NCBI RefSeq assembly: GCF_014332515.1
Contig: NZ_VFSD01000001.1
Location: forward strand, 372,001-436,000
DNA length: 64,000 nucleotides
Origin: Pontibacter beigongshangensis
GTDB lineage: Bacteria > Bacteroidota > Bacteroidia > Cytophagales > Hymenobacteraceae
Direction of reading: 5' to 3'
Positions within the stretch are counted from its first letter, which is position 1. Each line of letters opens with the position of its first letter. Under the pieces are notes generated by a model that made no database searches, was not told where the DNA came from, and worked only from the letters and a program-made list of their open reading frames with translations. Made by a program: the position numbers and the translations under genes. Shown piece by piece: positions 1,826 through 11,576 of this stretch.

Positions 1826-2273
1826 AGCTGTTAAACTCTTTCTCCGGTGTCATCTGCACCTGCTCAAACACTCTCATTACCTTTGCTCTGAACTCTAAGG
1901 GGTATTCCAGCTTGCAGGGGTATCGTAAAACGCTCTCATCCCCTGTTTTTAGCCACTTCTGCACCATTAGCACCTCTGCCTCTTCGTTGTAATGATCCAA
2001 GTGGAGCTCCATATCTTTTGAGGCTGCATAAAGTGATTTTGAGTATTCAAAGCCGAGCTCCTGCATGTAAAGGTGATGAAGGAGCTCGTGATGCATGCGC
2101 ATTTCCCAAGTGTCAGAATAGCCGAGCTCCTTCGCTTTGTACCGGTACTCGTCAGTATCTTCTGGGCTGGCTCCTAACATCTGCCCATCAGGAAAGGTTG
2201 AACGCACATGGCGGGTCGTATGCCAGATTTCTACCAGGACGGGGCCTAGCTGTAGTTTGATAGGTTCTTTCAT
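1815..2273 (-). CDS. Hypothetical phage protein with HExxH motif
   Basis: 152 residues. An HELLH sequence (residues 62-66, within HHELLHH) lies in a predicted helix and matches the HExxH zinc-metallopeptidase signature; acidic residues in NEEAEV about 35 residues later could provide a third ligand. There is no signal peptide, so it would act in the cytoplasm. The start overlaps the end of the cytosine methyltransferase by 4 bp (ATGA type), and the end overlaps the next gene. It might be a metallopeptidase-like phage protein, but the motif alone does not prove activity. Confidence 0.55.
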   Translation of the reverse strand: MKEPIKLQLGPVLVEIWHTTRHVRSTFPDGQMLGASPEDTDEYRYKAKELGYSDTWEMRMHHELLHHLYMQELGFEYSKSLYAASKDMELHLDHYNEEAEVLMVQKWLKTGDESVLRYPCKLEYPLEFRAKVMRVFEQVQMTPEKEFNSYEF

Positions 2274-3175
2274 AAGGTATCGTAATTTTCAATTGCTTTA
2301 AATATCTCGTAAGCCACTTGGGGCACAATCGCGTTTCCTGCTGCCTTTATGGATTCGTTTCTCCATTTTGGAAAGGTAATTCCGTCCAGTTCGGTGGGAA
2401 GCCCATCATCTCCAGCGCAAACCGGGGGTTGAGTTGGAAATTTCTCCCAATCCGTCGTTGCAAATGCTCGTGCAAGTTTACCCCTCTCGAATGTTCCTGC
2501 CGTTTCAGAAAAGCCTCTGATTCCTGGTTGAATCCGCTTCTGTAATCCCGGGCTGTTGGGGTGGGGAGCATCCCCGAACGGGCCATTGTACCCAGGTTGC
2601 AAGTGGTTTTCCCCATATTCTTGGGATTGCCACTGGCAACCATCCGGGCTCTCCATTCGTGGTAGTCCTCCTCTATCTCCGTAGCCTTTGGTGTGGGCAA
2701 CAAACCATACCCTGTCCCTCCTGTGAGGGGCTCCGACACCGCAAGCCGGAAGTACATACGGTTGTACCTCGTACCCTTCAGTTTCCAGGTCAGCCTGCAC
2801 TTCGTTGAATACCATTCCCCCGTTCCAATTAACAAGGCCGAGAACGTTTTCGCCCACGACCCAGCGCGGGGCAATCTCCCGAATTGCTCTAAGCATCTCC
2901 GGCCATAGGTGGCGGTCATCTTCCTTTCCAAGTCGTTTGCCGGCCATTGAGTAGGGCTGACAGGGGAAGCCGCCCGTGAGAACGTCAATCCTGTTTCTCC
3001 AAATAGTGAAGTCTGCTTTTGTAATATCATGGTATGAGGTGGCGTTAGGCCAGTAATAGTTCAAAACTCTTTGTCCGAAGGGGTTCCACTCACAATGGAA
3101 TTTGTTTTCCCAGCCCATCCACTCTGCCGCAAGATCAAACCCTCCAATGCCACTGAATAATGAGCCGTGTGTCAT
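2270..3175 (-). CDS. dcm: DNA (cytosine-5-)-methyltransferase
   Basis: 301 residues with the ordered C5-methyltransferase motifs: SAM-binding LFSGIGGFD (6-14), the catalytic Pro-Cys loop GGFPCQPYS with nucleophile Cys72, GENV (108-111), the HRRDRVWFVA block from 151, and the C-terminal AAGNAIVPQV (about 278-287). The region between 160 and 278, holding the target-recognition part, is short. It transfers methyl groups from SAM to cytosine C5. No cognate endonuclease is adjacent, so it is an orphan phage methylase. A second long ORF in another frame lies inside it on the same strand. It follows the 64-aa gene by one base. The symbol is used in the generic family sense. Confidence 0.93.
   Translation of the reverse strand: MTHGSLFSGIGGFDLAAEWMGWENKFHCEWNPFGQRVLNYYWPNATSYHDITKADFTIWRNRIDVLTGGFPCQPYSMAGKRLGKEDDRHLWPEMLRAIREIAPRWVVGENVLGLVNWNGGMVFNEVQADLETEGYEVQPYVLPACGVGAPHRRDRVWFVAHTKGYGDRGGLPRMESPDGCQWQSQEYGENHLQPGYNGPFGDAPHPNSPGLQKRIQPGIRGFSETAGTFERGKLARAFATTDWEKFPTQPPVCAGDDGLPTELDGITFPKWRNESIKAAGNAIVPQVAYEIFKAIENYDTL
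2347..3030 (-). CDS. Candidate overprinted gene nested in the cytosine methyltransferase
   Basis: A 227-codon ORF lies wholly inside the methyltransferase gene on the same strand in another frame, starting at an ATG whose bases also encode the ADFTI region upstream of the methylase Pro-Cys loop. Its product looks protein-like, with WYSTKCRLTWKLKGTRYNR, two LLPTP/MLPTPTARDY blocks and a C-terminal LNPRFALEMMGFPPNWTEL block. From memory, phage proteins carrying LPTPTARD and LNPxFVExMMGFPxxWT blocks exist as separate entries, often beside or overlapping C5 methylases. No independent start signal is evident. It could be a shadow ORF that only looks conserved because the methylase frame is; the distinction needs codon-level comparison. 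Confidence 0.5.
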   Translation of the reverse strand: MILQKQTSLFGETGLTFSRAASPVSPTQWPANDLERKMTATYGRRCLEQFGRLPRAGSWAKTFSALLIGTGEWYSTKCRLTWKLKGTRYNRMYFRLAVSEPLTGGTGYGLLPTPKATEIEEDYHEWRARMVASGNPKNMGKTTCNLGTMARSGMLPTPTARDYRSGFNQESEAFLKRQEHSRGVNLHEHLQRRIGRNFQLNPRFALEMMGFPPNWTELPFQNGETNP

Positions 3176-3598: not shown

Positions 3599-4480
3599 TT
3601 ATTCACAAATATTGTAGTAGGACATGCAGGAAGGGCGGCTAAACAACTCTTGCTGATCGGGGTTATCTGCCACATACTTTACCACATCGGACACCAAAGG
3701 CACATTCCCCTGTGGCGTTTCTTTGCTGCAAAACCTGCGCGGGATATAATCAGGCGGGAAGAACGTGCTATTCTCTAGTGCTTCCAGTGCTTCCAGTGTT
3801 TCCAGTGTTTCCAGTGTTTCAGGGAACTTCTCAGCTATGGTTTTAATCTCGTTATGGCTGCACATAATGCAAGGAAAACACCCTACCCGCTTCATGCCCA
3901 TGTAATACAGGGGGTTAGGTTTAAAGCCTTTGGAAAGGATAAAATCTATCACCTCCTGGCCGCTCCACTTGTGAATAGGTCTTTCCACATCGGCTGAATG
4001 CTTATCGCACCAAGCGACAATATCTTTCTTCCGGTAGCTGTGGTACTTTGGTTTGCCTTTTTTGTCGGTGCCGTATGGCTCAAAGTAGAACTTAAAATAA
4101 TCATCTGAGGGACTCATGGCGCGTCTTGCTGCGCTTTCCTCTGCCCTGATGCCCTGGTAAATTCTTACATCTTCTGTGAGGCTTAAAACATAGTCTATAG
4201 AGGGCTTTACTTTGAGTTCCTCCGTGCAGAACCTGGCTTTAGTTGAGGGGAATCGACCTTTTTTAGTTACCATATCAGCAAAGCCATCGTATTTCTTGCT
4301 CTTGATAATCTTTATCTGCTGCCCGATCTGGCTTTCCACCTCTTTGATGTGCTGGTAGGTAAGCTCGTGTTCCCATCCGGTATCACAGAACACTATCTCG
4401 AAGGCTGGCAGGTTGTCTTTTGCCCAGAGCAGGGTCGCTAGACTATCCTTGCCACCTGAAAACATGATTATATTTCTCAT
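3599..4480 (-). CDS. PP-loop PAPS-reductase-like enzyme, phage type
   Basis: 293 residues. The ATP-pyrophosphatase PP-loop SGGKDS is at 8-13, followed by FCDTGWEHE, and the IRAEES segment at 111-116 is typical of the phosphoadenosine-phosphosulfate reductase family. Cysteines cluster as GCFPCIMC (201, 204, 207), with Cys85 and Cys251, possibly binding Fe-S or zinc. Phage and mobile-element members are usually not sulfate-assimilation enzymes but relate to DndC-like or other PP-loop proteins; their chemistry here is unknown. A 9-bp tandem repeat encodes ETLETLETLEALEALE at 221-236. It sits in the same operon as two DNA methylases, so a nucleic-acid modification role is possible but inferred. 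Confidence 0.75.
   Translation of the reverse strand: MRNIIMFSGGKDSLATLLWAKDNLPAFEIVFCDTGWEHELTYQHIKEVESQIGQQIKIIKSKKYDGFADMVTKKGRFPSTKARFCTEELKVKPSIDYVLSLTEDVRIYQGIRAEESAARRAMSPSDDYFKFYFEPYGTDKKGKPKYHSYRKKDIVAWCDKHSADVERPIHKWSGQEVIDFILSKGFKPNPLYYMGMKRVGCFPCIMCSHNEIKTIAEKFPETLETLETLEALEALENSTFFPPDYIPRRFCSKETPQGNVPLVSDVVKYVADNPDQQELFSRPSCMSYYNICE
3776..3825. repeat. 9-bp tandem repeat inside the PP-loop gene
   Basis: About five head-to-tail copies of a 9-bp unit (GCTTCCAGT, drifting to GTTTCCAGT). The unit is a multiple of three, so changes in copy number would lengthen or shorten the encoded Leu-Glu-Thr/Ala repeat without a frameshift. Confidence 0.8.
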
Positions 4481-10247: not shown

Positions 10248-11576
10248 ATGTCATCTGCCACCTACAAAGTTACCATACGCACCGACCAGGTAAACGAAGA
10301 GGGTAAGAGCGCCGTGCGAATCAGGATCACCAAAGACCGCAAGACCGCCTACTACCATTCCGGCATCTTCCTGAAGGCAAGCAAGGATGCCCGTAAGAGC
10401 GAATGGAACCCCAAAGCCACCACCGAGAAAAAGAACTGGGTATCCTCCAGGCACTACGACAGCGGCCCCCTCAACCATCGCATCAAGACCATCCTGGAGG
10501 GCCTGCAGGAGATCGAGACAAAGAACCCCGTCTTCAGCAGCCAGGAGATCCGCGACACCTACGGCCGGCCGGAAGAAAGGCACAGGTACGGCTTCATCGC
10601 CTTTGCAGAGGAGTGGATCAAGCGCAAGCGGAACCTGGGGCAGTACGGCAGCGCCAACACCTACCACGTGCAGCTCGGCTACTTCAAGCGCTTCTGGGGC
10701 GACCGGCCCGATGACCCCTCCAAGCTCACCCCCTACACCGTGTCGGAGTTCGTCTACTTCCTGCGCACCTGCGACACCCGGCGCGGGAAGGGCTGCGGCT
10801 ATGACCCCAAGACGATCAACGACGCTTTCGCCGTTTACCGCAGCTTCTTCAAGAATGCCATACTGGAAGGGTGGGCCTTGCCGGTGCCGAACCCTTTCGA
10901 CGTGCCCCCTGTCGAGGAGAAGCTCAAGCAACTGGAGCGGCCCGACGTTAACCAGACCTTAGGGCTGATGCACCTGGAGGGGCTTTCGCCTTTGCAGGTG
11001 CATGTGCGCAACCTGTTCCTGATGCAGTATTTCCTGCACGGGGCGCGTGTCTCGGAGGCTTACACGCTCAAATGGGAGAACGTGAACAGCACCCACATCA
11101 TTTTCAAGCCCAGGAAACGGGCAAAGGAGGTGAAGGTCATCCCCAGGCACGACGGCATCGAATGGATTTTGGCGCAATATTCCCGGCAGGGCAATTATAT
11201 TTTCCCGTTCTTTGCAGAAAAGCACGAAAAGGCGAAGGGCGAGGAACTGCGCCAGCTCATGCGCAACCTGAACACGCTTATTGCCAACACGCTGAAGGCA
11301 ATTGCTAAAAAGGCAGGGTTGCCGCACCTCACCTCCCACATGCAGCGGCACACGTTCGCCGACCACGCCTGGGAGCTGACCAAGAACATCCGGCAGGTGC
11401 AGGAGATGCTGGGGCACAGCGAGAGCAGGACGACGGAGGTGTACATGACCAAGCTCGGGCAGTTGAGCCAGGATGACCTGAGCAAGACCCTGTACGGCGG
11501 CGTTCAGGTAAACATCAGGAAAACAAATGTAAAGGATGACGCTGGAAACGAGGCGTCAAATGATGAAAAGGAATGA
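10248..11576 (+). CDS. Tyrosine recombinase/phage integrase
   Basis: 442 residues. An N-terminal arm-type domain (1-100) with the Bacteroidota pattern of an AYYHSGIFLK segment, a SAM-like core-binding domain (about 113-215), then the catalytic domain with Arg267 (HGARVSEA), His364 and Arg367 (HMQRH), His390 (LGHSESRTTEVYM) and nucleophile Tyr399. All expected catalytic residues are present. Base composition is visibly more GC-rich than the neighbouring prophage genes. The stop codon overlaps the start codon of mtaB, placing the integrase at the element-chromosome boundary. It should catalyse integration and, with an excisionase, excision. Confidence 0.9.
   Translation: MSSATYKVTIRTDQVNEEGKSAVRIRITKDRKTAYYHSGIFLKASKDARKSEWNPKATTEKKNWVSSRHYDSGPLNHRIKTILEGLQEIETKNPVFSSQEIRDTYGRPEERHRYGFIAFAEEWIKRKRNLGQYGSANTYHVQLGYFKRFWGDRPDDPSKLTPYTVSEFVYFLRTCDTRRGKGCGYDPKTINDAFAVYRSFFKNAILEGWALPVPNPFDVPPVEEKLKQLERPDVNQTLGLMHLEGLSPLQVHVRNLFLMQYFLHGARVSEAYTLKWENVNSTHIIFKPRKRAKEVKVIPRHDGIEWILAQYSRQGNYIFPFFAEKHEKAKGEELRQLMRNLNTLIANTLKAIAKKAGLPHLTSHMQRHTFADHAWELTKNIRQVQEMLGHSESRTTEVYMTKLGQLSQDDLSKTLYGGVQVNIRKTNVKDDAGNEASNDEKE

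Follow-up and report, generated by a model that had tools for sequence, protein, structure and literature searches.

A prophage C5-cytosine methyltransferase gene encloses a second conserved frame that very probably encodes the missing DNA-recognition part

The window analyzed here is a stretch of 64,000 nucleotides from Pontibacter beigongshangensis (contig NZ_VFSD01000001.1, positions 372,001 to 436,000). On its minus strand, at 3175-2270, lies a C5-cytosine methylase ORF of 301 amino acids, termed alpha, which entirely encloses a second ORF of 227 amino acids, termed beta (3030-2347, minus strand, from an ATG at 3030 to a stop ending at 2347). A preliminary description of this DNA had reported a 227-codon ORF nested in the methylase in another frame, and it was found exactly as claimed. 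Beta is read in the +1 frame relative to alpha, so that the second codon positions of beta are the wobble positions of alpha. The features of the locus are listed below.

2270..3175, minus strand: alpha, putative C5-cytosine methyltransferase catalytic subunit; motifs I-VIII and X, no recognizable motif IX
2347..3030, minus strand: beta, nested ORF, proposed recognition and motif IX subunit; +1 frame, phrog_1008 match at 6.8e-20
3028..3030, minus strand: proposed beta start ATG, at about alpha codon 49; ATG enrichment, without Shine-Dalgarno sequence
3140..3160, minus strand: alpha motif I, LFSGIGG, by motif location
2948..2974, minus strand: alpha motif IV, GGFPCQPYS, by motif location
2843..2857, minus strand: alpha motif VI, VGENV, by motif location
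2693..2725, minus strand: alpha motif VIII, HRRDRVWFVAH, by motif location
2318..2338, minus strand: alpha motif X, GNAIVPQ, by motif location
2683..2703, minus strand: beta first LPTP block, LLPTPKA, by motif location
2542..2571, minus strand: beta second LPTP block, MLPTPTARDY, by motif location; alpha wobble identity peaks here (0.907)
2371..2433, minus strand: beta motif IX-like block, LNPRFALEMMGFPPNWTELPF, by profile comparison, motif search and single-chain relatives

The alpha/beta locus is within a prophage, as placed by an integrase gene at 10248-11576 and by terminase, portal and primase-helicase genes leftward on the same contig. Pfam assigned the neighbors of the pair to an N6/N4 methylase, a PAPS-reductase-family protein and an ERF recombinase, the first two of which flank it (974-1603 and 3599-4480, minus strand); phages C72C1, BS-TP4, BKO1-TP3 and ShiLan likewise have a gene of the PAPS-reductase family close to the methylase. 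No restriction endonuclease was recognized by Pfam among eight neighboring ORFs, five of which had no match of any kind. The source genome contains one beta match.

Relatives were collected with each frame separately. When fetched by beta, 525 of 527 candidate stretches were confirmed and the best 80 were used; when fetched by alpha alone, with beta ignored, the best 80 of at least 600 candidates were taken. The pooled set held 176 sequences, 170 of them with an alpha match, 154 complete and 122 distinct, and the alpha-only test set comprised 53 complete alpha genes from 80 loci after exact copies of earlier-fetched genes had been dropped. In 53 of 53 alpha-fetched genes, an open +1 frame covered 0.70 or more of alpha (mean, 0.81), compared to an open fraction of 0.32 in synonymous shuffles that preserve alpha's protein and codon use, and every gene beat its own shuffles at P<0.05; the +2 frame of the same genes averaged 0.11. 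When 112 thinned sequences were compared at 168 gap-free codon pairs, identity in the beta frame was 0.520 versus 0.299 in shuffles, with 82 stops against a shuffle mean of 612. The +2 frame likewise exceeded its shuffles in identity (0.443 versus 0.285), yet it contained 1199 stops in the 112 sequences.

Fourfold wobble positions of alpha were 34% identical before the overlap, 64% within it and 40% after it. Identity peaked at 91% in residues 201-220 and at 86% in residues 241-260, coinciding with the LPTPTARD and NPRFxxEMMGFP blocks of beta; the blocks that the preliminary description had singled out (LPTP and NPRFxxEMMGFPxxW) are conserved in the nested frame. At alpha residues 201-220, third positions were more conserved than first positions (0.58 versus 0.37), indicating that the codon rhythm there belongs to beta. 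Among 40 close pairs (80 sequences), there was 1 stop in the 18,028 beta-frame codons that correspond to alpha residues 61-275 in window numbering, and among 84 loci beta was interrupted in two, L046 and L047. Substitutions creating beta stops, counted by taking each changed base singly, were mildly depleted, with 35 alpha-silent events against 44 expected and 56 alpha-changing events against 96; in the linker, alpha-silent changes that make a stop were no rarer than beta-changing ones (rates of 0.107 and 0.092). When the real codons were checked, 307 of 308 stop-making events gave no stop in the partner sequence. By these comparisons beta is a real coding frame, far beyond chance, and is under protein-level selection. 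The preliminary description had suggested a dual-coded pair, to be dismissed if alpha's synonymous sites varied freely and stops broke the nested frame in relatives; the sites do not vary freely, the frame is open in all 53 alpha-fetched genes, and both frames are conserved.

Nearly all beta matches overlap a methylase (among 120 loci listed, 101 are nested and 7 single-chain), as they would if beta were a shadow ORF, open only through alpha's protein sequence and codon use. Against this, synonymous shuffles that keep both properties abolish the open frame and the beta similarity, codon-position conservation in the variable region follows beta, and the substitution ratios given below mark beta as the better protected frame there. 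The shadow ORF was rejected on these three counts, and we give it virtually no credence. Hits that merely shadow C5 methylases had been named earlier as a sign of an artifact; the near-universal overlap was borne out, but it reflects shared DNA and not shadow status.

Database searches separated the two frames. Alpha matched Pfam DNA_methylase (PF00145) at 8.8e-44, over profile positions 2-166 of 324 only; the catalytic motifs I, IV, VI and VIII of PF00145 were all located in alpha, its recognition region and motif IX were not found within the alpha chain, and the alignment of alpha to M.HhaI was limited to residues 16-170. Beta matched phrog_1008 at 6.8e-20, a family labeled "DNA methyltransferase," although this label does not tell that members can be frames nested within a different gene. 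NCBIfam gave no match for beta, PADLOC none for five beta-type proteins, and Pfam nothing significant for the window's beta. Two Pfam hits of the window's beta (E of 0.15 to 0.27), the hits of the beta family in a Pfam scan (3 of 56 family hits, single-member ones, best E of 0.0055) and the one hit of a PDB profile search with beta (E of 0.32) were read as chance.

In C5 methylases, motifs VIII and X are separated by the target-recognition region and motif IX. Among 112 genes, a motif search detected motif IX in none of the alpha chains and motif X in 109 of them; beta had a motif IX of the MG[FYW]PxxW type in 111 and an LPTP-like block in 107. Compared by profile with seven canonical methylases, beta gave its best local match between LNPRFALEMMGF and their motif IX, LTPRECARLMGF, a match that is weak by itself (hhalign p of 0.017, probability of 2.7%). 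With the canonical motif IX profile, beta frames did little better than shuffles: 4 of 112 reached at least 5 bits, compared to 0 of 1120 shuffles; the beta median was 0.9 bits, and that of the shuffles, among those reported, was -1.3. A stronger profile, whose core is circular since it was built from chains chosen for WMMGFP, scored at least 8 bits in 112 of 112 beta frames, 28 of 1120 shuffles and 0 of 112 alpha chains.

Searching viral contigs for a WMMGFP DNA pattern (the shorter form, as the stricter one matched nothing) gave at least 120 loci. Among the 120 listed, the motif was nested in the +1 frame of a methylase in 101, in the methylase's own chain in 7 and in the other frame in 0; the remaining 12 had no methylase over the motif, 8 of these lacking the following tryptophan and 3 lying at contig edges. 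Mycobacteriophage proteins ShiLan gp70, Tweety gp72 and Babsiella gp54 share with the window pair the catalytic core and, in the interval from motif VIII to motif X, the LPTP block(s) and EWMMGWPAGW, and differ in having all of this in one frame; in ShiLan gp70, with three LPTP blocks, and Tweety gp72, with one, the order is I-VIII, LPTP block(s), EWMMGWPAGW and X. Babsiella gp54 (L412, 1492-3339) has six LPTP-type repeats in its variable region, and the repeat number differs greatly among relatives. Motif X is present in five of the seven single chains among the 120 loci; the L342 frame has only part of the catalytic region. The spacing from IX to X is 19 to 23 residues in seven single chains with the beta-type motif (the five plus ShiLan and Tweety) and 19 or 23 residues in the six measurable of seven canonical enzymes. 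Position in single-chain relatives, which is stronger evidence than similarity, thus argues that the beta motif is motif IX. In two actinophages, DarthPhader (gp21/gp22; L415, 1501-2512) and Camerico (gp38/gp39; L416, 1543-2389), the methylase is an adjacent split pair with slight overlap, whose second gene carries PTP, IX and X. A tree of 64 of 66 rows set the seven canonical enzymes apart from the rest (99/91) and placed four single-chain forms among the nested ones; many of its forks are open, so no order of events is drawn. The single-chain relatives with the same modules, like the two ORFs, the conservation of both frames and the motif split, are read directly from the sequence.

These relatives bear on the view that beta is a separate accessory, regulatory or anti-restriction protein sharing DNA with a methylase complete by itself. 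Such a protein would fit the N-terminal half of beta, which is its own, is conserved over alpha motifs IV-VIII and has no counterpart recognized in canonical methylases. It fits poorly with the absence of motif IX from alpha in 112 of 112 genes, with beta C-terminal blocks whose counterparts in single-chain relatives occupy the place of the recognition region and motif IX, and with a second gene that also bears motif X in the two actinophages; we regard it as unlikely. The accessory or anti-restriction factor proposed in the preliminary description is therefore probably not what beta is; beta corresponds instead to the part that alpha lacks, which comprises recognition region and motif IX. The most likely identity of beta is that of second subunit in a split C5-methyltransferase of the M.EcoHK31I kind, the hidden frame being very probably the missing DNA-recognition part and the ordinary frame the catalytic part.

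Enzymes of this kind are known. The small gene of M.EcoHK31I is nested in the large one in another frame, as is the small gene in the window, and M.EaeI is a second two-polypeptide C5 methyltransferase. In one paper, the larger subunit of M.EcoHK31I has motifs I-VIII, X and a predicted recognition domain and the smaller only IX (PMC3404938), and in another the enzyme is termed naturally split (PMC3439449). The window pair is alike in motif layout, with I-VIII and X in the large polypeptide and IX in the second. It differs in lying in a prophage with no restriction gene recognized beside it, and the window's substitution pattern points to beta for recognition, whereas the predicted recognition domain of M.EcoHK31I is in its large subunit (PMC3404938). 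In M.AquI, according to the same paper, the larger chain has I-VIII and the smaller part of the variable region, IX and X (PMC3404938); the window pair shares the two chains and the larger one with I-VIII, but its motif X is in alpha. DarthPhader gp21/gp22 and Camerico gp38/gp39 resemble M.AquI. In Paenibacillus phage Shelly, gp55 and gp56 form a nested pair in the same relative frame; the depositors annotated gp56 as "g55 internal gene," and its record names a DNA methyltransferase that is not described as a subunit. Together with phrog_1008, this entry confirms the earlier statement that proteins like the nested one have database entries of their own. In a survey of 48 P. larvae phages, DNA-cytosine methyltransferase appears twice in a table and the words "nested" and "internal gene" are absent from the text (PMC6070908). 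The literature searched, which took in few subscription journals and some sources in part, held no description of nested beta subunits as a phage family; within that literature, the kind of enzyme is already known, and its breadth in phages and the reading of recognition from beta are undescribed.

We compared selection on the two frames by counting substitutions by their effect in each, using 40 disjoint gene pairs that were 72 to 90% identical. Over motifs IV-VIII, the rate of alpha-changing/beta-silent substitutions was 0.41 (95% bootstrap interval, 0.35 to 0.46) of the alpha-silent/beta-changing rate, so that in this part alpha is more strongly protected than beta; between motifs VIII and IX the same ratio was 1.64 (1.44 to 1.89), and the stronger protection lies with beta. 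Beta is constrained over IV-VIII too, as doubly silent changes there reached 0.296 versus 0.096 for alpha-silent/beta-changing ones, a three-fold excess. This pattern can be read as alpha serving catalysis and beta serving recognition together with motif IX.

A beta-frame ATG was present at alpha codons 44-64 in 108 of 112 genes, compared to 75 in shuffles, and the first one fell at codons 48-50 in 56 genes and at 55-64 in 50. Beta starts showed no Shine-Dalgarno signal: an SD-like 4-mer accompanied 4 of 112 of them and 11 of 112 alpha starts, and other ATGs gave a background of 12.6%, which the beta starts do not reach. Starts of this sort would suit a beta frame that ribosomes enter from alpha by frameshifting, with an alpha-beta fusion as the product, as would the frame of L328 and L367 (identical by eye), which holds motifs I-VIII and IX, ends right after IX without X and is possibly another frame arrangement. 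A shift after motif VIII would however lose motif X, and the ATG enrichment and the constraint on beta over IV-VIII, upstream of any useful shift, speak against it as well, leaving frameshifting very improbable. Near the proposed start, beta residues 6-10 (window 3001-3015, minus strand) read QTSLF, with QxSLF there in many relatives by consensus; we take this to resemble the sliding-clamp binding motif QL[SD]LF, and it might tether the enzyme to replicating DNA.

Our preferred reading, to which we assign a probability of roughly 0.86, is that the prophage locus encodes a two-subunit alpha/beta C5 methyltransferase on one DNA stretch in two frames, with specificity mainly via beta. Translation of beta, assembly, methylation, specificity and a protective role are what we infer. 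A single message would give both chains, with translation of beta beginning at an internal ATG that lies about 48 codons into alpha. Alpha would provide the catalytic domain with motifs I-VIII and X, and beta the target-recognition region with the LPTP blocks and the motif IX absent from alpha. The two chains would then assemble into one enzyme methylating phage DNA at a site picked mainly by beta, most likely to the benefit of shielding phage DNA from host restriction.

The arrangement extends beyond this prophage to many phages, where it is usually recorded as one gene. In a survey of genomes, 115 stretches were confirmed and 80 of them used, most being Bacteroidota according to their record titles; the beta match overlapped the alpha match in +1 in 80 of 80; alpha was interrupted in the record in two of them (L184, by a run of N, and L248, by a frame change). 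Host genomes seldom carry the window's own type of beta (3 of 296 within the phylum), as expected of a phage gene. Paenibacillus and Lacticaseibacillus beta queries each returned 68 phage records, 54 of them Paenibacillus phages, and nested pairs also occur in mycobacteriophage SG4, an environmental podovirus, lactobacillus phages Lc-Nu and R9.1 and a Salmonella plasmid. On a Bacteroides finegoldii plasmid (L086, 1657-2776), a stop interrupts alpha and beta is open for 348 codons; the annotation gives two fragments, both in alpha's frame. A Paenibacillus bovis plasmid (L085, 3501-3902) has, after its nested pair, a 133-amino-acid ORF that lies clear of the methylase and contains the PTP and motif IX blocks. 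This ORF matched phrog_1008 at 1.7e-9, its other two frames are full of stops, and searches with it confirmed no relative in viral contigs and gave no match among phages; it is perhaps a second specificity subunit.

We lean toward the broader view that alpha/beta enzymes with a long nested specificity subunit make up a large share of the phage C5 methylases that are recorded as single genes, the catalytic stretch being held mainly by alpha and recognition and motif IX by beta, and the DDG[LF]P block of alpha being partly a by-product of beta motif IX. Annotation usually keeps one of two overlapping frames, so that such enzymes are recorded as lone methylases, and an enzyme cloned as alpha alone could seem inactive or of unknown specificity. 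Recognizing beta would make target sites testable and give phrog_1008 a likely meaning, and the pairs offer a large natural family of two proteins on shared DNA with a measurable split of selection. If the broader view is true, they would rank, in both length and spread, among the foremost nested gene pairs of double-stranded DNA phages, and target specificity would be read from the frame that annotation discards.
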